A model generated the notes under the pieces. It was given only the letters and a program-made list of their open reading frames with translations. It was not told the origin of the DNA and did not search any database. Source: Apostichopus japonicus (taxonomy: Eukaryota > Echinodermata > Holothuroidea > Aspidochirotida > Stichopodidae). Taken from it: a DNA stretch of 64,000 nucleotides. Positions within the stretch are counted from its first letter, which is position 1. Every line of letters starts with the position of its first letter. The stretch lies in assembly GCF_037975245.1 (NCBI RefSeq), contig NC_092562.1, forward strand, positions 17,497,521 to 17,561,520. Direction: 5' to 3'. The translations under genes were made by a program, and so were the position numbers. This document shows, piece by piece, positions 45,863 to 63,109 of the stretch.

Positions 45863-45911
<49 letters not shown>
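45657..45911. repeat. Inverted repeat plus (AT)n tract
   Basis: GACTTAGGTTTACC (45659-45672) and GGTAAACCTAAG (45812-45823) are inverse complements. An AT run at 45864-45911 follows. Inverted relative of 26825-26920. Confidence 0.7.
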
Positions 45912-45914
<3 letters not shown>

Positions 45915-46343
45915 AATTGTACAATTGTGCTATGAAACCAACTGTGGCTGGTCTGGAACTCGACCGAGTCGCCGGGAACACGATGCGTTTCGGTATTAGA
46001 CCAGGATCTATATGATCCGTAACTCATACAGTGAATCTAAAAATAAATTCCGCATGTGATTGGAGAATTGAGCACATCTCCTGTGAATATCATGTAGTGC
46101 GTGGGGGGGGGGGCAGGCGGATGCACCTATCACTTCTTGAGATTGTTCCAATCTGCGTGAAAATGCCCCACCACCCACCCCCCACAACCCCTACGCCCCA
46201 CCCCTCTTATCACTTCCCGATGGGTTACAAAACTTAAACAATAACCTTCGCCCGTAGTACCAAAACCTTGACAAAATCCGGCAGCACACCACTTCATCGA
46301 TAGATAACGAGTCTAGTGATCGGGCTGTGTATAAGTGATGCTA

Positions 46344-47568
46344 GAGGTCGTGCATATGGCAAGCCCTTTAACATTTACCTCGCAATTAGACTTAAGTCGA
46401 ATACATTTCACTTAAGTGGAATACATTCTACTTAAGTGAAATGTTATTCCACTTAAGTAAAATGTATTCAACTTAAGTGGAATTCAATATCCCTTAAGTA
46501 GAATTCCATTTCTCTTAAGTGGAAATGGACATTTCTATTTCACTTAAGTGGATATGCCTCCCACTTAAGTGGAATTGTATTTCACTTTAGTGGAAATGCA
46601 TTCCACTTAAGTGGAATTGTATTTCACGTAAGTGGAATACATTTCCACTTAAGTGGAATACATTTCCACTTAAGCTAAATAGCCCATCTATTTCACTTAA
46701 GTGGAATACAATTCCACTTAAGTGAAATGCATTTCCACTTAAGTGAAATACAATTCCATTTAAGTGGAATGCATTTCCACTTAAGTGGAATTGTATTCCA
46801 CTTAAGTGGAATACAATTTCACTTAAGTGGAATAATATCTTTTGCTCGTCAATTTCCCTTAAGTGGAATTCTATTCTGCCAAAGTAAAATACAATTCCAC
46901 TTAAGTGGAAGTGTTGATATGTGGCTTATATATAAATACAATTTAGGGTAATGTTCGGTAATGTTATTTTGGTAATGGTATTCATCTGGTACAAGGTCAG
47001 GTATGTACGTACTCACCTTGCACGGATGTTAAGTGCTAGCTGGATCCCGATGGACAGCCGATATTCATTGTGCACATATCGACACCACGTATCGCGGTAA
47101 GTTGTTTATAATGGCGCGCAAAGGCATGGGCAAAGTTTTGCGTTGAATGTACTAGCCAATCACATTCCACTTAAGTGAAATAGACTATCCAATCACATTT
47201 CACTTAAGTGGAATTGTATTCCACTTAAGTGAAATAGAAAGGAAATTCCACTTAAGTGGAATTGTATCCACTTAAGTAGAATAAAATTCCACTTAAGTGA
47301 AATGCATTTCCACTTAAGTGAAATACAATCCCCTTAAGTGAAATAGATTAAGCTTAAGTAAGATGCAGTGACAAGTTGATGAATTCAGCTTAAGTAAAAT
47401 ACAATTAAGCTTAAGTGGAATGGTATTCCACTTAAGTGAAATAGAATTCCACGTAAGTTAAATAGTATTCTGCTTAAGTGATATTGAATTCCACTTAAGT
47501 GAAATGTATTCGACTTAAGTCGAATTGCGAGGTAAATGTTAAAACGGCTTGCCATACGTGCACTGACC
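46344..47568. mobile_element. Foldback element built of CTTAAG palindromes
   Basis: The outer ends (left: AGGTCGTGCATATGGCAAGC; right: inverse of AGGTCAGTGCACGTATGGCA) continue as inverted repeats through AACATTTACCTCGCAATT and GACTTAAGTCGAAT. Inside are two arrays of the palindrome TTCCACTTAAGTGGAA and variants: about 20 CTTAAG cores at 46390-46915 and about 15 at 47163-47522. A roughly 245-bp non-repetitive centre separates them. TA dinucleotides at 46342-46343 and 47569-47570 may be the target duplication. No coding frame. Confidence 0.85.
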
Positions 47569-47927
47569 TAAATGGAGTGTAACCACTCCCGATTTTGCAA
47601 TTTCCCAAGATCAGGCCCGAAAAATCCCAAGACATTCCAAGAACACTGTGCTGTATGGATTTCTAGCAATATCCAGCGATATCTAGGGATGAATATCCCA
47701 AGATCTTACCTAAACTGAAGGCAGATAGAGAATCGAAACCTTCAGTGTACTGAACTTGAAACTGCGTCTTTCGAAATGAAAAGAATGTCGGGAATTGCAC
47801 AATAAACAAATCAAAGTTATTTATTTCAGTCTCATTTCAATTATTCGAATTTGTTAAGCAAACAGCAGATATCACATCATATAAGTGAGCATGAACATGG
47901 CGTTCCAGGATGAACAGCCTCTAAACC

Positions 47928-48112
47928 ATGGGCGCAGATCCTGGTGCGGACAGCGGGACGCGTCCCCATCAACTTTTTCAGTAGTGGGGACATGATATAC
48001 CGTGTCCCCACCAATTTGTCTTGACCAATAGCTGCATTTCAAGTTCCCCTGTATTGAACCTTGGCGCAGTTAGATCCAGCCCAGCCCCCGGTTCCTACGC
48101 CCTTGCTAACCA
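47928..48112. mobile_element. Short TIR element (GGGCGYAG ends)
   Basis: CATGGGCGCAGATCCTGG at the left; the right end is the inverse of CAAGGGCGTAGGAACCGG. About 185 bp, hAT-MITE-like. Confidence 0.55.
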
Positions 48113-48784
48113 CTGCGTCACAGCAACTGTTGAGAAATAATGCTATTTTTTCTTCAAAATGGAACCCAGGGAGATGTTCAAAATGCTGTACTTGTAAACA
48201 GGATAACTCAACACGTACACCTTTATTGAACTTCATATTTCAAATGGTCTTAAAATTGGCATTATTTTCAGTGATTAATACTACATGACTCTAGGTTTGG
48301 CAGTAACTTGTGAAAATGTTTCATAGTGAAAATAAAACAATGTCATGTAACTCATTAATTATTAAAGGGGTGGCAGAGCTGCTTTTCTTGCTCAAATTGA
48401 TCAAAGAATATGTCCATGTGCTCATACATAGAGCATCTGTATGTCTTTATTTCACATAGGAAGACTGTTCTCTCTGGGTATTGAAACATTTTGGAATATA
48501 AATTCTACATTTTTGAGTCCTTAAAAGATCTTAATTCTTTTGATTGCCTTGTTGCTAAAGTAATGGTCAAGGCAACGTTTCCTGAATCTGCATAGCTCAT
48601 GTCGCAGAGCGGTTGAAAACTATTAATATACAACAACCAGTTAAAACAACAGTATCAGGCAGTATTTTAGCACCCTCCGTTCCATTTTTGAAGAAAAAAT
48701 TACGATTAAAACATTGAACACTTCTATCGCTTAGCGTACAATTTCCGAGGAAACAACACCGTGAAACTGGAGAACATTTATGAA

Positions 48785-48955
48785 TAAGAAAGGTTTGATT
48801 TGTCTGCTTTGAATTAACGTATGACTGGCAAGATGCGTCGAGCGCTCTCTATCGGCCTCGTTTTTGGTCAGTTTGCAACTTCAGAGGAACAATAGAAACC
48901 CGAAAAAAACTTTTAAAACGAACAAAGGATTCACAAACCTTTGTTCTACGTAAAA
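48785..48955. repeat. Copy of the 51395-51562 segment with terminal hairpin
   Basis: GGCAAGATGCGTCGAGC and CAGTTTGCAACTTCAGAGGA are shared with 51436-51504. In both, a TAG stop in the same position is followed by a hairpin (here GAACAAAGG and CCTTTGTTC). Confidence 0.75.
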
Positions 48956-49035
48956 GATAAGCAGAATGAAAATAAAATAAAACTGTTAGCAAACTGCTTA
49001 TCCACTAGAGAGCCTGTGCAATAGAATGTGTAAAA

Positions 49036-49069
49036 GTTTCGATCCTAGCAGGATCTTCTTCAGAGGCTA
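49036..49069 (-). ncRNA. Second hammerhead-like motif (degenerate)
   Basis: The - strand reads AGCCTCTGAAGAAGATCCTG, CTAGGATCGAAAC, identical to 18448-18480 through GAAAC. It then diverges to TTTTAC, so the cleavage-site GTC and stem I partner are absent. Confidence 0.4.
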
Positions 49070-49085
49070 AAAAAATAAGATAAGC

Positions 49086-50460
49086 AGAAAGTTTGGTTTA
49101 TTGTAGATTTGTGTGTGCGGAATTAGCCCGATTGATACGGGAAAGGTGATTAATTTGCTCTAGGTGGGTTATGGTGCGGTTATCTATAATTATTTCGAAA
49201 ATCTTACCTAAGGCTGGGAGGAGACTAACTGGTCGATAGTTTTGAATTTTGGTGCGGTCTTTACTTAGTTTCGGTATTAAAATCTTTTTGGCGGATTTCC
49301 ATGGGGTTGGGAAATAACCCAGTGTAAGGAGTTCGTTAAATAGTGGGAAAATATGAGAGTTAATGAATATCGGAGGGGAGTTTTTAGGCATTTGGTCATT
49401 TATGTTGTCAGGACCAGTGGAGGATGCATGTTTTAGTGGCACTATACCAATTGTTTATATCTATTTTATTGAGCAGAGAAATGTTTTTGTTGAGACATCC
49501 TAATGGGTTGGTGTGAAAGCTTGTTGCATTACTGATAATTGTACGATCTATTTCGTGTTTACAGCTGATATCGTATGGGGGGCCATCGTATATATTGCAT
49601 ATACTTGTAAAGTACGATTCAATTAGCTTCATTTGGTCTTGAGTTTTTGTGATGAGGTTACCTACGTTATCTCTAAGGCCTTGGTCTGTTTTACCTGTGT
49701 TTGGTGTTGTAATGGGGTTAATGTTTTTTTTTAATTAAATTTTCCAAAAGTGTTTCGGGTTTTTATCATTAATGATTAAATCGCAGTTGTTTTGGACGCG
49801 GTTTTGTTCATCCGCCAATATTTGTCTGTTTATTGCTATTTAAGTTGGTTAATTTGGGTTTTTAGGGTTGGGTCTCGGGAGATGATATAAGTTCTACGTA
49901 GGCGACGTCTGAGTTTCATAAGTGTAAGAATATTCTTGTTTAGTTTTCGTTTGCTGTTTAGTTTTTAAGGGACAGTGTCTTTTGAAAGTATAGAAGATAT
50001 GATGGGCAACGCTGTCACAGTAATTGTCGATGTAATTTAGCTCGTTGTTTTGGTTGTTGTATTTTGGGAGTCTGTTTTATTGTAATTATACGTCAATTCG
50101 TTATTTGGTATGCAGTTGAGGTTAATGTCTAGCTCAAAAACGAGTGGAAAATGGTCACTGATTTAGTCATCTTCTAGGATTTGTATCGAATGTGTTTTAG
50201 TTGCGAGTAGAGGTGATTTGAGGTTATATGGGTAGTCAAGTAGTTCTGTAATATTGTTTATTGGGTTCATCCTAGGTTTGGTATTTTGGTTAATTATCGT
50301 TAAGTTGTATTAATCACATATTTCTAAGAGAGACTTGCTTTTTTTCAGAAAAAATGTGGTGGGCATTTACTAGGAGTTTTTTATCTTTTTATTAGAACAT
50401 TTTTTTTTTATTATATCGGTGGATATCCGGGGCTCATTTGGGGGACCATAATCATACCAC
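49086..50460 (-). mobile_element. Jockey-like LINE fragment, copy 2
   Basis: Parallel to 60240-61640 of the longer copy. The - strand frames include an RT N-terminal part (SKDRTKIQNYRPVSLLPALG) and a linker region (CKHEIDRTIISNATSFHTNP). Many frameshifts. Its 3' end is cut at 49086, next to the Penelope-like hammerhead fragment. Confidence 0.85.
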
Positions 50461-52490: not shown

Positions 52491-52850
52491 ATTATTTCTA
52501 AACATTTACGGTGGTTAGTGTTATGTACTTAGAAAGTAAGACAAACTCTCTGTCTAGAATTCAACTCCCAGAGGAGGTATTGTTTTGGTATTTCTTTTCC
52601 TCATTTTGCAGTTAAAATATTAGAAAAGCCTATCATTTCTCAATTAACAGTTACTGTGGCGAAGTTGTTATGTTGTATAATTTTGCATATTTATTATTGT
52701 TTTGTACAATGAAATTGTCAATAAACTGAAAAAAATGAGACATACTCCTTGTCTTGAATTCAAACACCAGAGGATGCATTTGATTTTCTATTTATTTGCC
52801 TTCTAATGTTGTGAAGATTAAATATTAGAAACGAGTATTCAATCTCAACA

Positions 52851-54870
52851 GTTCTCGTGGCGCAGTTGGTAGTGCTCTGGACTGGAGAGACAGACAAACT
52901 CCATGTCTCCGGTTCGAACCCCAGACAGCATTTTATATTTTGCTCTTTTCCTGATTTCATTCTGGACTATGAAGTTTAAATATTAGAAACGAGCATTATT
53001 TCTCAACAGTTCTAGTGGCGCAGTTGGTAGTGCTCTGGACTGGAGAGACAGACAAACTCCATGTCTCCGGTTCGAACCCCAGACAGAGCATTTTATATTT
53101 TTGCTCTTTTACTTATTCCATTCTGGACTTTGAAGTTTAAATATTAGAAACGAGCATTAATTCTCAACAGTTCTAGTGGCGCAGTTGGTAGTGCTCTGGA
53201 CTGGAGAGACAGACAAACTCCATGTCTCCGGTTCGAACCCCAGACAGAGCATTTTATATTTTTGCTGTTTTACTTATTCCATTCTGGACTTTGAAGTTTA
53301 AATATTAGAAACGAGCATTAATTCTCAACAGTTCTAGTGGCGCAGTTGGTAGTGCTCTGGACTGGAGAGACAGACAAACTCCATGTCTCCGGTTCGAACC
53401 CCAGACAGAGCATTTTATATTTTTGCTCTTTTACTGATTCTATTCTGGACTCTGAAGTTTAAATATTAGAAACGAGCATTAATTCTCAACAGTTCTAGTG
53501 GCGCAGTTGGTAGTGCTCTGGACTGGAGAGACAGACAAACTCCATGTCTCCGGTTCGAACCCCAGACAGAGCATTTTATATTTTTGCTCTTTTACTTATT
53601 CCATTCTGGACTTTGAAGTTTAAATATTAGAAACGAGCATTAATTCTCAACAGTTCTAGTGGCGCAGTTGGTAGTGCTCTGGACTGGAGAGACAGACAAA
53701 CTCCATGTCTCCGGTTCGAACCCCAGACAGAGCATTTTATATTTTTGCTCTTTTACTTATTCCATTCTGGACTTTGAAGTTTAAATATTAGAAACGAGCA
53801 TTAATTCTCAACAGTTCTAGTGGCGCAGTTGGTAGTGCTCTGGACTGGAGAGACAGACAAACTCCATGTCTCCGGTTCGAACCCCAGACAGAGCATTTTA
53901 TATTTTTGCTCTTTTACTGATTCTATTCTGGACTCTGAAGTTTAAATATTAGAAACGAGCATTAATTCTCAACAGTTCTAGTGGCGCAGTTGGTAGTGCT
54001 CTGGACTGGAGAGACAGACAAACTCCATGTCTCCGGTTCGAACCCCAGACAGAGCATTTTATATTTTTGCTGTTTTACTTATTCCATTCTGGACTTTGAA
54101 GTTTAAATATTAGAAACGAGCATTAATTCTCAACAGTTCTAGTGGCGCAGTTGGTAGTGCTCTGGACTGGAGAGACAGACAAACTCCATGTCTCCGGTTC
54201 GAACCCCAGACAGAGCATTTTATATTTTTGCTGTTTTACTTATTCCATTCTGGACTTTGAAGTTTAAATATTAGAAACGAGCATTAATTCTCAACAGTTC
54301 TAGTGGCGCAGTTGGTAGTGCTCTGGACTGGAGAGACAGACAAACTCCATGTCTCCGGTTCGAACCCCAGACAGAGCATTTTATATTTTTGCTCTTTTAC
54401 TGATTCTATTCTGGACTCTGAAATTTAAATATTAGAAACGAGCATTAATTCTCAACAGTTCTAGTGGCGCAGTTGGTAGTGCTCTGGACTGGAGAGACAG
54501 ACAAACTCCATGTCTCCGGTTCGAACCCCAGACAGAGCATTTTATATTTTTGCTCTTTTACTTATTCCATTCTGGACTTTGAAGTTTAAATATTAGAAAC
54601 GAGCATTAATTCTCAACAGTTCTAGTGGCGCAGTTGGTAGTGCTCTGGACTGGAGAGACAGACAAACTCCATGTCTCCGGTTCGAACCCCAGACAGAGCA
54701 TTTTATATTTTTGCTGTTTTACTTATTCCATTCTGGACTTTGAAGTTTAAATATTAGAAACGAGCATTAATTCTCAACAGTTCTAGTGGCGCAGTTGGTA
54801 GTGCTCTGGACTGGAGAGACAGACAAACTCCATGTCTCCGGTTCGATTCCCAGACAGAGCATCATGTCCA
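52851..54870. repeat. 13-unit tRNA-like satellite, 161 bp
   Basis: Unit starts (GTTCT-GTGGCGCAG) at 52851, 53009, 53170, 53331, 53492, 53653, 53814, 53975, 54136, 54297, 54458, 54619 and 54780. Each has an A-box-like TGGCGCAGTTGGTAGTGCTC and a B box GGTTCGAACCCC. The T-stem does not pair well, so tRNA function is unlikely. The linker comes in three types, and the ACTGATTCTATTCTGGACTC type recurs at units 4, 7 and 10. First and last units are more diverged. Confidence 0.92.
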
Positions 54871-58772: not shown

Positions 58773-59602
58773 TTACCTTTTTTTTTAATTCGAGTAAAAG
58801 TTTTGTTTTTGTTGTTGTTGATATCAAAACAAAAGGAGTTTAACCCCTGGTCGACCTGGCGAGAGGTCCTACGGGGGATAATAAGTTTGTTTTTATAGAA
58901 TAGACATTTTTTTTTTTTTTTCTTGGAGAGGTTGTTTATGTTCAGTCAGGGAATTGCTGGTAAATGAAGTCTTATATATTTACATAGGACAGGATAGCCA
59001 TAATCATACCCGAGGTCAGAGTCGAAGAGTCAATTAGGGAGGGATTTCTAAAGGAGAGGAACTTTTTAAGTACTGAGAATTGTGGAGACGGAGTGGTTTC
59101 TATTGTTGGGTAGGGAGTGGTTGTGTTTTCTATTGTTTGGTAACAATATAATCTGTATATAAGTATACTTGGGCCTAGACCCATTTTGGAAAGGATTTTT
59201 TTAATGGAATGAGACTTTAAGTAGTAACAATTGTGAATACAGAAAGGGTTTGATTTTTGGGTAGTGAGTTGTTGCGACTTTGTATTTCAGGGGGAGGTCT
59301 TCAATCAAAGGGTCGTTCTCGAGGTTGTTTTTGTATAACTTGGTGTTGAATTCTTCAAGTCGGGTGAAAGTAGATTTTGTGTTTCCTGCACGGAGAACGT
59401 ACAAAGTAGCAATATAGGTAGGGATTTTGAGTGCGAGTCGATAAGCTGTGGTGTGGATTCTGTTTAAAATTTGTTTATTGGGATTAGAGATGGTAAGCAG
59501 GGAGATTCTCCCGTAACTGAGAATCGGTTTTACTTTGGGTTTATAGATTTGAATAATTGTTTTCGGAGGGAAGTTATATTTGTGTGAGAGGATTTGAATG
59601 GA

Positions 59603-60700
59603 TTAAAGTTGGAACCAGCAGCGTCCTGCAGTTCTGTTACAAAGTAGATTAAACGATAATTTGCTATCGAAAGTGGTACCAAGGAAGGTTGCATTAGGAG
59701 TAGCAGTGATTGAGGTGTTGAAAAGATTAACTTTGGAAATATGGTTATGGTATTTTGAGTTTATTATGGAGAAATTGGCTAGGTTAGATTTTGAGGGATA
59801 TATTTTTGTTCTCCACATCGAGCACCAATTTTCGAGATGTGTAATTGCTCTTTTAATATTTAGTTCCGTCATATAGATATTTTTACTGGTGCTCCAAATG
59901 GCTATGTCGTCAGTGTACTGACTATAGTTGCATTCAGATAGAGGGGGGATGTTCAAATCATTAACAAATAGGGTGCAGGGGAGGGGACTGAGAACAGCGC
60001 CCTGTGGAGTACCTGCACCAAGTGGAATAGGTTTTGATTGTTGGTTTTTGTAGCATATTTTGGCATTGCGCTCACTAAAGAAAGAGGAAAGAAGTCTGGT
60101 GTAATTGGAGGGGACATTAAAGTTAAGTAGTTAAATTCTTATGCCGTTGTGCCAAGTTTTGTCGAACGCCTTTTCGGCATCAAGGAAGAGGGCAGTGGTA
60201 TCATGTCTTTTTATGAAGCCGATGCGAATTTCTTTTGAATGGTGGAAAGTTTGGTTTATTGTTAATTTGTGTGCGCGGAATTAGCCTGATTGATACGGGC
60301 AAAGTGATTAATTTGCTCAAGGTGGTTTATGGTGCGGTAATCTATAATTCTTTTGAAAATCTTACCTAAGGCTGGTAGGAGACTAATTGGTTGATAGTTT
60401 TGAATTTTGGTGTGTCTTTACTTAGTTTCGGTATTAAAATCATTTTGGCGGATTTCCACAGGGTTGGGAAATGCCCCAGTCTAAGGAGTTTGTTAAATAA
60501 TGGGAAAATATGAGAGTTAATGAATATCGGAGGCCGACGGAGGGGAATCTTTTAGCATTAGGTCATTTATGTTGTCAAGACCAGGGGAGGAGGCATTTTT
60601 GCATATTCAGTGGCACTATACCAATCATTTATATCTATTTCTTTGAGTAGAGGGATGTTTTTGTTGAGACATCCTTAGAAGTTGGGGATAAAGCTGCATT
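59603..60700 (-). pseudogene. LINE ORF2 reverse transcriptase
   Basis: The N-terminal RT region parallels 49098-49442. Motif B GTPQGAVLSPLP and LFVNDLNIPP lie near 60030-59940; the catalytic box QYTDDIAIWS is at 59920-59891. Frameshifted. Confidence 0.88.
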
Positions 60701-61600
60701 ACAGATAATTGTACGGTCTATTTTGTGTTGGAATCTGTTATCGTATGGAGGGCCATCTAAGATATTGAATATAGTTTTCAAGTATAATTCACTAAGCTTT
60801 ATTTGGTCTTAATTTTTGTGATGAGGTTACCTACTTTATATCTAAGGCATTCGTCTGTATTACCTGTGTTTGGGTTGTTATGGGTTTATGATATTTTTTT
60901 AATTTTTCCAAAAGTGTTTTGGGTTTTTGTCATTAATGATTGAATCGCATTTGTTTTGGATTCGGTTTTGGTCGACCGCCGATATTTGTCTATTTATTTG
61001 TTTTTTAGGTTGGTTAATTTAGGTTTTTAGAGTTGGATCTGGGGAGATCATATAGGTTCTATGTAGGCGACGTCTGAGTTATTTAGTGTAAGAATATTCC
61101 TATTTAGTTTTGGATTTCTGTTTTGTTTTTAATGGGCAGTGTTGTTTGAAGGTATTAAAGATATGTTGGGCAATGCTGTCACAATATATGCCAATGTAAT
61201 TTAGCTTGTTGTTGTGGTAATTGGCAATAGTGTTGTTTGTTATGATCCCTTTTTAAATGTCCAGTCTGTTTGATTGTAATTATACGTTCATTCGTTATTT
61301 TGGATGCGACTGAGGTTTATGTCTAGCTCAAAAAGGAGTGGAAAATGGTCACTGATTAGGTCATCTTCTAGGATTTGAATCGAATGAATTTTAGTTGCAA
61401 GGTGGTTTGAGGTTATGGCGTAGTCAAGTAGTTCAGTATTATTGTTTATTGGGTTTATCCTAGTTTTGGTATTTTGGTTAATTATTGTTAAGTTGTGTTT
61501 ATCACATATTTCTAAGAGGGATATGCCTTTTTCAGATATTTTGGTGCTACCAAAAATGATGTGGTGGGCATTTAAATCTCCTAGTAGTATTGTATTTTTA

Positions 61601-61963
61601 TTACAACTTTTTTTGATTGTGGATATGGGCTCCTTTGGGGACTATAATAGCTAATAATGTGGAGAGGTTTATTGTCTCTTTCGAGTACAATTTCAATTGT
61701 TTGGGTTTGTTTGGGAGGAGGGTGGCTTTGAGGTTGTTTTTTTCAGCAATAAGTACTCCTCCCATAGAGCGAGAGATATCGTGTCTGAAAGTTTGGTAAC
61801 CAGGGATGCTAAGGTGGGAATTTTTATTTAGTTTAGTTTCGTTTAACGAAATGATATCCGGGGAGTGGTTGGCGAATATAGTAAGTAGGAGGCTTAATTT
61901 TGGAAGGATACTGTTGATGTTTAGGTGGAGGAACTTGACCGAAGGAGGGAGTGTGCTTGTCAT
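61601..61963 (-). pseudogene. LINE ORF2 N-terminus, APE-like endonuclease
   Basis: MTSTLPPSVKFLHLNINSIL, then SPDIISLNETKLN (catalytic Glu motif) and SMGGVLIAEKNN. Frame breaks downstream. Confidence 0.85.
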
Positions 61964-63109
61964 GTAGGTGATTGAGGAGGGCTAAATATTGAAAGATGGT
62001 GGAGACGTTCCATAATTACAGTTTCTGGGATATTTAAGTTTAGTGCTAACACGGTGGCGTAACTGGCAAGGTCGTCAGATTTAATATTAATGTTGGCTTT
62101 TTGGAAGGTGTATTGTACTAATTCAATTACAAAGGTTGCGGTATTAAGTTTTTTTTTCAGTGACGATTTTATTTCTTATTTCAATTTTAGGGGTAAAATT
62201 GGTTACATTCGCGTAGGTTCTTCGTTCTTGTTGTTTGTTATTATTTTCAGTTTTAGCTTCTTTAAATTTTGGGCATCCTTTGTAAAGGGCGACATGAGTC
62301 CCTGAGCAATTGGCACATTTTGGGTTTTCTTTTGGTTTGGGACAGTCTTTAACTCTGTGGTTTTCGTCACATCTGAGACATCTGGTTTGATTTTTGCAAG
62401 TATGGTGGGTGTGTCCAAAGAGTTGACATTTGAAACATTGAGGGATTTGGGGGGTTCGTGGTATTCTTCTGTTTTGTGTTTAGAGTATCCTAAGTAGAAA
62501 CCATGTTTGATTAGGGATTGTTGAGGCTCTTGTTCTTCAAACGTCATTTTTACTTTCCAAGTTGTATTGTTTGTGGCATGACTAATGAGTCTTTTAGTTT
62601 GTATTGGGGTGTATTCTTGGTCTTTGAGTTCTTGTTCAATATCTTTGATTTGAATTTCAGGGTTTATGCCACAGGCTACTACGGAGAAGTTTCTTTGTCA
62701 TACCTTTTGGGGGATTCTTGGTTTGGGGTTGCCTAGTTTAGTCTTTTGAGTCCATGGTTTCAGGAGGATATTTGCAGATTTAGGGTCATGGGGGTGATAA
62801 GGATGTCGTTACTACGAAGACGGTTTATATTTGAGATCATGGCATTTGGTTTTTCTTCATTGATTAGTTTAGCAAGTGTTTATTGGATTTTTTGATAGTT
62901 CTGGTAAGATTCCTGATACAATGATTGTTTGAGCGGACTTTTTGGTGGTTGGTTTGGAGTTAGGAGATGGGTTTATTTCAACGTAGATTGGACGTTGTCT
63001 TTTTCTGCTATTTTTGTACTGGGATCCAGTCATTAATGTCTACGTCAAAATCAGAGAGGTTTAGGTTTTCGACTAGGGGGGCGGTTATAGGTGGGTAAGG
63101 GGTTGTCAT
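61960..63109 (-). pseudogene. LINE ORF1 (Gag-like) with three zinc knuckles
   Basis: Starts ATG (63109-63107) MTTPYPPITAPLVENLNLSD. Three CCHC knuckles lie at 62437-62273: CFKCQLFGHTHHTC, CLRCDENHRVKDC and CANCSGTHVALYKGC, typical of Jockey/I-group ORF1. At least two single-base frameshifts (near 63025 and in an A-run near 62150). Ends TGA at 61962-61960, overlapping the ORF2 start as ATGA. Confidence 0.85.

Follow-up and report, generated by a model that had tools for sequence, protein, structure and literature searches.

Elements of the IS3EU group, as far as the available excerpts of the published accounts go, have TA...TA ends and usually generate a target site duplication (TSD) of 6 bp (PMC10045372), and those of rust fungi are described with a terminal inverted repeat (TIR) of over 30 bp, TAYGG...CCRTA ends and again a 6-bp TSD (PMC12730594). 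Fungal IS3EU families with a TET/JBP gene are reported also to carry an alpha-kinase gene, in opposite orientation to the transposase (PMC10045372, PMC12730594). Foldback elements, for their part, are mostly assigned to Mutator, with exceptions; FB, Tetris and Tm1 are each described as having an outer TIR, inner tandem repeats and a middle domain and as occurring in non-autonomous copies, and the study of Tetris reports that its autonomous copy was not found (PMC4079207). Galileo has foldback-like arms with tandem repeats that contain multiple transposase-binding sites, which have been proposed to give binding specificity (PMC3688188).

The element considered here lies in a window of 64 kb (the whole stretch of DNA analysed, C2:17497521-17561520 of a 671.6-Mb genome in 35 contigs, which by its size, introns and repeats is probably that of an animal). 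It is very probably an IS3EU-type DNA transposon, a non-autonomous foldback whose arms are palindromic arrays that, judged from their sequence, are most likely bound by dimers of the transposase. Its features, in positions of the window, are as follows.

46355 to 47556, no strand: whole non-autonomous foldback element, 1202 bp, with boundaries set by independent copies and empty sites
46349 to 46354, no strand: left copy of the TSD, CGTGCA
47557 to 47562, no strand: right copy of the TSD, CGTGCA
46355 to 46385, plus strand: left TIR outside the array, 31 bp
47525 to 47556, minus strand: right TIR outside the array, 32 bp
46386 to 46910, no strand: left arm of 23 palindromic units, mostly at 20-21-bp steps, with irregular steps of 29, 27, 36 and 42 bp
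47165 to 47524, no strand: right arm of 15 palindromic units
46911 to 47164, no strand: centre, a type-1 centre (see below) that is shortened and reversed, the 83-codon-frame stretch being absent
45864 to 49889, no strand: larger repeated stretch enclosing the window copy, common to the other class-A loci fetched (see below)

The layout that had been proposed from the letters alone, of about 35 near-palindromic units in two mutually inverted arrays around a unique centre, is borne out: 38 units, of which the left array has 23 and the right one 15, lie within five substitutions of TTCCACTTAAGTGGAA, the centre measures ~250 bp and 35 exact CTTAAG fall between 46391 and 47519. Clustering of this hexamer is also evident, there being 49 in the 64-kb window against 19.6 expected and a maximum of 30 in 100 shuffles. 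Likewise, the left arm does fold on itself as a single strand, with z = -26, a value which is due to the palindromes themselves. The span of 46344 to 47568 given in the earlier note is too wide, the element proper running from 46355 to 47556; its termini are TATGGCAAGCC...GGCTTGCCATA, with CGTGCA on either side, and the apparent inverted repeat beyond it (AGGTC-GTGCA) is a nearly palindromic host target together with its duplication.

Further tandem repeats and mobile sequences share the window with the element. A 161-bp repeat occurs 12.8 times at 52812-54862, its copies being 97% alike and having a tRNA-like stretch containing GGTTCGAACCCC, which we take to be B-box-like, and no tRNA was called in this repeat by ARAGORN (bacterial code). 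A 165-bp repeat at 1-1296, in 7.9 identical copies, has a tRNA-like GGTTCGAACCCC stretch too. Fragments resembling non-LTR retrotransposons lie at 59200-62700 (minus strand) and 49087-50452, with an endonuclease match (PF03372, E 2.9e-5) just under the cut-off and a reverse-transcriptase-like frame recognised by eye; 49087-50452 and 60245-61648 are 81% alike. A Pfam scan of ten open reading frames of the window gave nothing bearing on the element, and Rfam gave no match.

A lack of other copies and of shared ends had been named beforehand as the outcome that would reduce the locus to a one-off local expansion. The 26-bp end is multicopy genome-wide, with 318 exact occurrences (149 + 169) against none for a reversed-pattern control. 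Adjacent plus/minus end pairs, 1.4-3.9 kb apart, number 34 and take up 68 of the 100 ends listed, although the flanks of at least one (C2:18661896-18665094) show that it is not a single element. From 40 loci fetched (L033-L072), 40 two-ended elements were obtained, L047 yielding two and L043, with one recognisable end, being left out. An exact 6-bp TSD is present in 35 of the 40 (nine of ten class-A and 26 of 30 class-B copies) and absent in five, a count biased towards a match at three loci where one element is nested inside another (L047, L049 and L052), for which the end pair sharing a TSD was chosen. The TATGGCAAGCC terminus stands at both ends of 37 of the 40 copies, as it does in the two large relatives described below; in other words, these have the TA...TA (TAYGG...CCRTA) termini of IS3EU/GingerRoot elements. 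From 25 independent TSDs a target consensus of YGnnCR is obtained, G2/C5 being present in 45 of the 50 symmetrised positions.

Class A comprises copies that share their flank with the window, as 28 of the 42 matches of the first genome search do. At the ten of these 28 loci that were fetched, the sharing extends past the element, wholly or in part, over 45864 to 49889 at mostly 94-99% similarity (one flank, at L042, is 87%). Since the flanks beyond the element are common to the fetched loci, class A is counted as one insertion, which we infer to have been multiplied within a larger repeated stretch.

The comparison of filled with empty sites that had been suggested for related genomes can be made within this genome itself. 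At all 40 places scored, the sequence follows the joined flanks of the window copy without an intervening insert; the search gave 568 candidates at first look, at 84-92% identity, with a joined-flank query that by design favours empty copies. Each of the ten empty sites fetched has a single target copy at the insertion point, CGTGCA in nine and CGTGAA in one. The tandem units of 20-21 bp might by themselves bring to mind a one-off local repeat or satellite expansion, which is refuted by the 318 exact ends, the TSDs and the empty sites and can for practical purposes be dismissed. The earlier suggestion of a foldback transposon is, conversely, upheld by the shared multicopy ends, the 6-bp TSDs, the empty sites and the existence of transposase-bearing relatives.

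As would be expected of the foldback class, with its mobile copies built of inverted tandem-repeat arms around a middle domain, CTTAAG arrays are found in all 33 profiled elements. Two arms around a centre are the usual layout; in L045 a single array runs through without a break, L047b has four arrays and L063 an extra 0.9 kb after the second array. With these three left out, the other 30 sort by centre into type 1 (16 copies, centre usually ~650 bp) and type 2 (14 copies, centre ~740-930 bp), the window copy being type 1 with a shortened centre. Type-1 arms range from 244 to 843 bp, the number of units differing between copies. All 14 type-2 copies, and L063, have a third recognisable end; in L054, for example, this is the terminal repeat, present once more on the inner edge of one arm (element position 534).

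Type-1 centres contain an 83-codon frame, with 120 matches in the genome, many of them fragmentary or with stops. Selection on this frame finds no favour in its substitutions, which look neutral (5 synonymous versus 14 non-synonymous, ratio ~0.8, p 0.59, over the first 73 codons of 13 copies, one of them with a stop). Copies of the frame come back every 173-228 kb in C19:31.00-32.36 Mb, every 170-203 kb in C20:0.28-1.24 Mb and every 159-194 kb in C4:10.53-10.89 Mb, and do so less regularly in C12:15.0-16.3 Mb (110-327 kb) and at the beginning of C21, C14 and C11. Such recurrence points to tandem segmental repeats of very large size, some of them near chromosome ends.

A transposase is lacking from the window copy itself. 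Two complete large relatives, with the same ends and arms, do carry one: a 22,667-bp element at 12.28 Mb of C1 and a 21,419-bp element at 5.81 Mb of C16. Both are flanked by exact 6-bp TSDs (CGGCCG in C1, GGTTCG in C16) and have palindrome arms at both ends, of 21 and 15 units in C1 and of 23 and 20 units in C16. They are ~97-98% alike over most of their length, and the similarity begins no more than 2 bp from the left terminus and stops at the right one. A tandem array of ~160 bp lies inside the large relatives (L074-L080), its length unlike between the C1 and C16 copies. Between the type-2 arm of L054 (1-534) and the left arm of C16 the identity is 97.4%; the type-2 centre, compared with 20.5 kb of C16 (the last 2.6 kb of the element lying outside the comparison), matches only at the ends and arm units.

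Directly inside the C16 arm is exon 1, the sole divergent relative of the 83-codon frame, to which it is 38-40% identical; in C1 this exon is broken by ~1.5 kb. Downstream exons of C16 match rva_4 (PF24764, integrase core) with E 2.7e-76 and 9e-9, and there are weaker matches, below curated cut-offs, to HTH_7 (1.8e-4) and to the IS481 transposase (1.5e-4). The C16 relative accordingly has a DDE transposase such as IS3EU/GingerRoot elements have (IS3/IS481-related), with a link to IS481 that is a single match below cut-off. By eye, and in an unspliced reading of the C16 exons, the putative D, D and E residues stand in WHMDG, RSDHG/RSDQG and QRIERLW. For these exons no match to rve (PF00665) was listed at E up to 0.1, no solved structure was similar to exon 4 and its AlphaFold model has a pLDDT of 45. 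The last exon of the C1 relative is 97% identical to that of C16, the other 88 of the 90 exon-4-like matches being at most 63% identical. Convergent with the transposase, both relatives also have a 362-codon frame, which in C16 resembles the last third of a HECT domain (PF00632, E 1.1e-11). Contig C17, with 5.5% of the genome, holds 26 of the 66 distinct exon-4-like (rva_4) places.

Among 120 exon-1-like and 90 exon-4-like matches, the two kinds lie within 50 kb of each other only at C16:5.81 Mb, and a transposase belonging to the type-1 lineage was not found. It may have been a transposase of the C1/C16 type, rather than a closer one, that moved the type-1 lineage of the window copy. A further candidate partner, the top match to PF13683 (the best one of 88, at L073 on C4), was set aside; it is a 383-aa integrase, presumably Gypsy-like, with apparent flanking repeats and no matching ends. 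In viral contigs there was no match to the element end or to unit pairs and no relative of the transposase, and in phages no match. Prokaryote contigs gave 24 loci with CACTTAAGTG pairs, which were rejected, having at most five CTTAAG per 1.2 kb and flanks that are unrelated by eye; these unrelated pairs (L001-L024, in Bacteroidaceae and other prokaryotes) stand at 20-23-bp steps and in some genomes at several places.

An assignment to another superfamily, be it Mutator-type foldbacks, Galileo/P or some further group that makes 6-bp TSDs, has in its favour that a foldback anatomy typifies Mutator foldbacks as well as Galileo (PMC4079207) and that Polinton, as described, likewise gives 6-bp TSDs (PMC10045372). 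It is nevertheless very improbable, given TSDs of 6 bp, where those of Tetris are of 8-10 bp, together with the rva_4 transposase exon, the weak IS481 match and the IS3EU-like termini. Moreover, the four C16 exons scanned, a set that is possibly incomplete, contain no match to THAP, the Galileo/P trait, or to MULE, that of the Mutator foldbacks.

The arm units are constrained at the level of single bases. In a profile of 328 unit middles with distinct contexts, picked only by the position of their neighbours, positions 1-2, 6-11 and 15-16 carry 1.7-2.0 bits, positions 5 and 12 ~1.4 and positions 3-4 and 13-14 ~0.7; the middle of the spacer carries 0.5-0.8 bits, its edges 1.4-1.5. When the C16 left arm is set against the L046 arm, which is of type 1 and 78.6% identical to it, differences over 20 gap-free units number 0/200 in the core, 59/120 at the flexible positions and 38/97 in the spacer (core versus spacer, Fisher p 9e-22). 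The same contrast recurs in the other comparisons with C16, for the left arm of the window copy (core 8/220, spacer 31/107), another type-1 arm (2/160, 26/76) and the right arm of the window copy (3/100, 13/48), all these counts being read with the proviso that reference units were chosen by CTTAAG and that the aligner favours core on core. Positions 4 and 13 are complementary in 240 of the 328 units, where shuffles average 148 and reach 172 at most, whereas 3/14 and 5/12 (129 and 248 of 328; shuffled means 156 and 256) are without palindromic covariation; shuffles and Fisher tests alike count the units as independent in spite of their relatedness.

In type 1 the pair most often present at 4/13 is C-G (428/620), and in type 2 (225/575), C16 (17/43) and C1 (14/38) it is T-A, fractions which indicate a change of preference and no clean switch. 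The outermost unit shows a compensated change, being TTCGACTTAAGTCGAA at the right end of the window copy (TTAGACTTAAGTCGAA at its left) versus TTCTACTTAAGTAGAA at the four C1/C16 ends. The left arms of the window copy and of C16 also share irregular steps of 29 and then 27 bp, in the same order, with 7 and 7 units between irregular steps in the former and 8 and 5 in the latter; the arrays therefore look inherited, with some units gained or lost.

It is in this light that two other explanations of the arms have to be weighed. The first is that the arrays are kept by copying alone, through slippage, hairpin-templated repair or gene conversion, and serve no binding function. Palindromes do fold strongly, and unit number does vary, both in the length of type-1 arms and between the irregular steps; conversion should, however, homogenise the spacers too, and these differ where the core does not (38/97 versus 0/200), while the shared 29/27-bp order makes much of the array look inherited, such that this explanation is improbable. 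The second, somewhat less improbable but still unlikely, is that the arms are arrays of sites for a host transcription factor, used for expression or chromatin targeting and not for transposase binding. The half-site, CCACTTAA, resembles, we believe, the sites of NK-2-class homeodomains; half-site constraint and dyad symmetry would suit any dimeric binder and the array adjoins exon 1 in the C16 relative. Against this, inverted copies stand at both ends, including the end far from the transposase gene, and the commonest 4/13 pair is unlike between lineages of one genome, which is unexpected for a shared host factor.

The preferred reading is thus that of arms bound by the transposase, for which the multi-site arms of Galileo provide a precedent. 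In this regard the base-level constraint supports the protein-binding array of the earlier note as a role for the arms, with binding as such a prediction from sequence. A DDE transposase like that of the 21-23-kb relatives would cut at TATGG...CCATA and insert the element into a 6-bp target, with a preference for YGnnCR, which would then be duplicated. Each arm would present near dyad-symmetric 16-bp sites, spaced by about two helical turns, most likely bound by dimers of the DNA-binding (helix-turn-helix) part of the transposase, and many weak contacts would sum to specific end recognition and synapsis. The core constraint, the 4/13 pairing and the step pattern are what one would expect if dimers bound along a single face of the helix. 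More tentatively, and as a possibility that we do not favour outright, the arms could be an avidity code, ~36-43 near dyad-symmetric sites per element for a multimeric transposase, in which the 4/13 preference shifted through both arrays at the lineage split while the DNA-binding part co-evolved, so that a single genome would now contain two distinct recognition systems.

The foldback design would hereby be extended to IS3EU, and here, unlike in the study of Tetris, transposase-bearing full-length relatives stand beside the non-autonomous copies. Two array dialects within one genome offer a testable case of a short-site transposase gaining specificity by repetition, and also a case of transposon lineages changing their recognition code; the HECT-like second gene is a further lead.

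With respect to known systems, the earlier remark that the design belongs to no standard family needs dividing. Foldbacks with tandem repeats in inverted arms are a known class (PMC4079207), and to that extent the statement fails; it holds for the IS3EU literature searched, in that the open-access texts and excerpts gave no IS3EU foldback, palindrome-arm or HECT-carrying IS3EU element. Repbase and closed papers were outside this search, and an earlier description is therefore possible. As far as the accounts seen describe them, Mutator-type foldbacks (FB, Tetris, Tm1) are like the present element in outer TIR, inner tandem repeats, middle domain and non-autonomous copies; the TSD differs in length from that of Tetris, and the C16 exons scanned gave no match to a Mutator-type transposase. 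Galileo, of the P superfamily in Drosophila, is alike in its long foldback-like inverted repeats with tandem repeats, and unlike in its THAP-domain P-type transposase, the present elements having another transposase and short, near dyad-symmetric units. The likeness to IS3EU/GingerRoot, on the descriptions available, comprises ends of the TAYGG...CCRTA type, a 6-bp TSD, a TIR of over 30 bp and an integrase-like DDE transposase; what sets the present elements apart from those described is that either end has an arm built from 15-23 palindromic units and that the large relatives have a HECT-like second gene.
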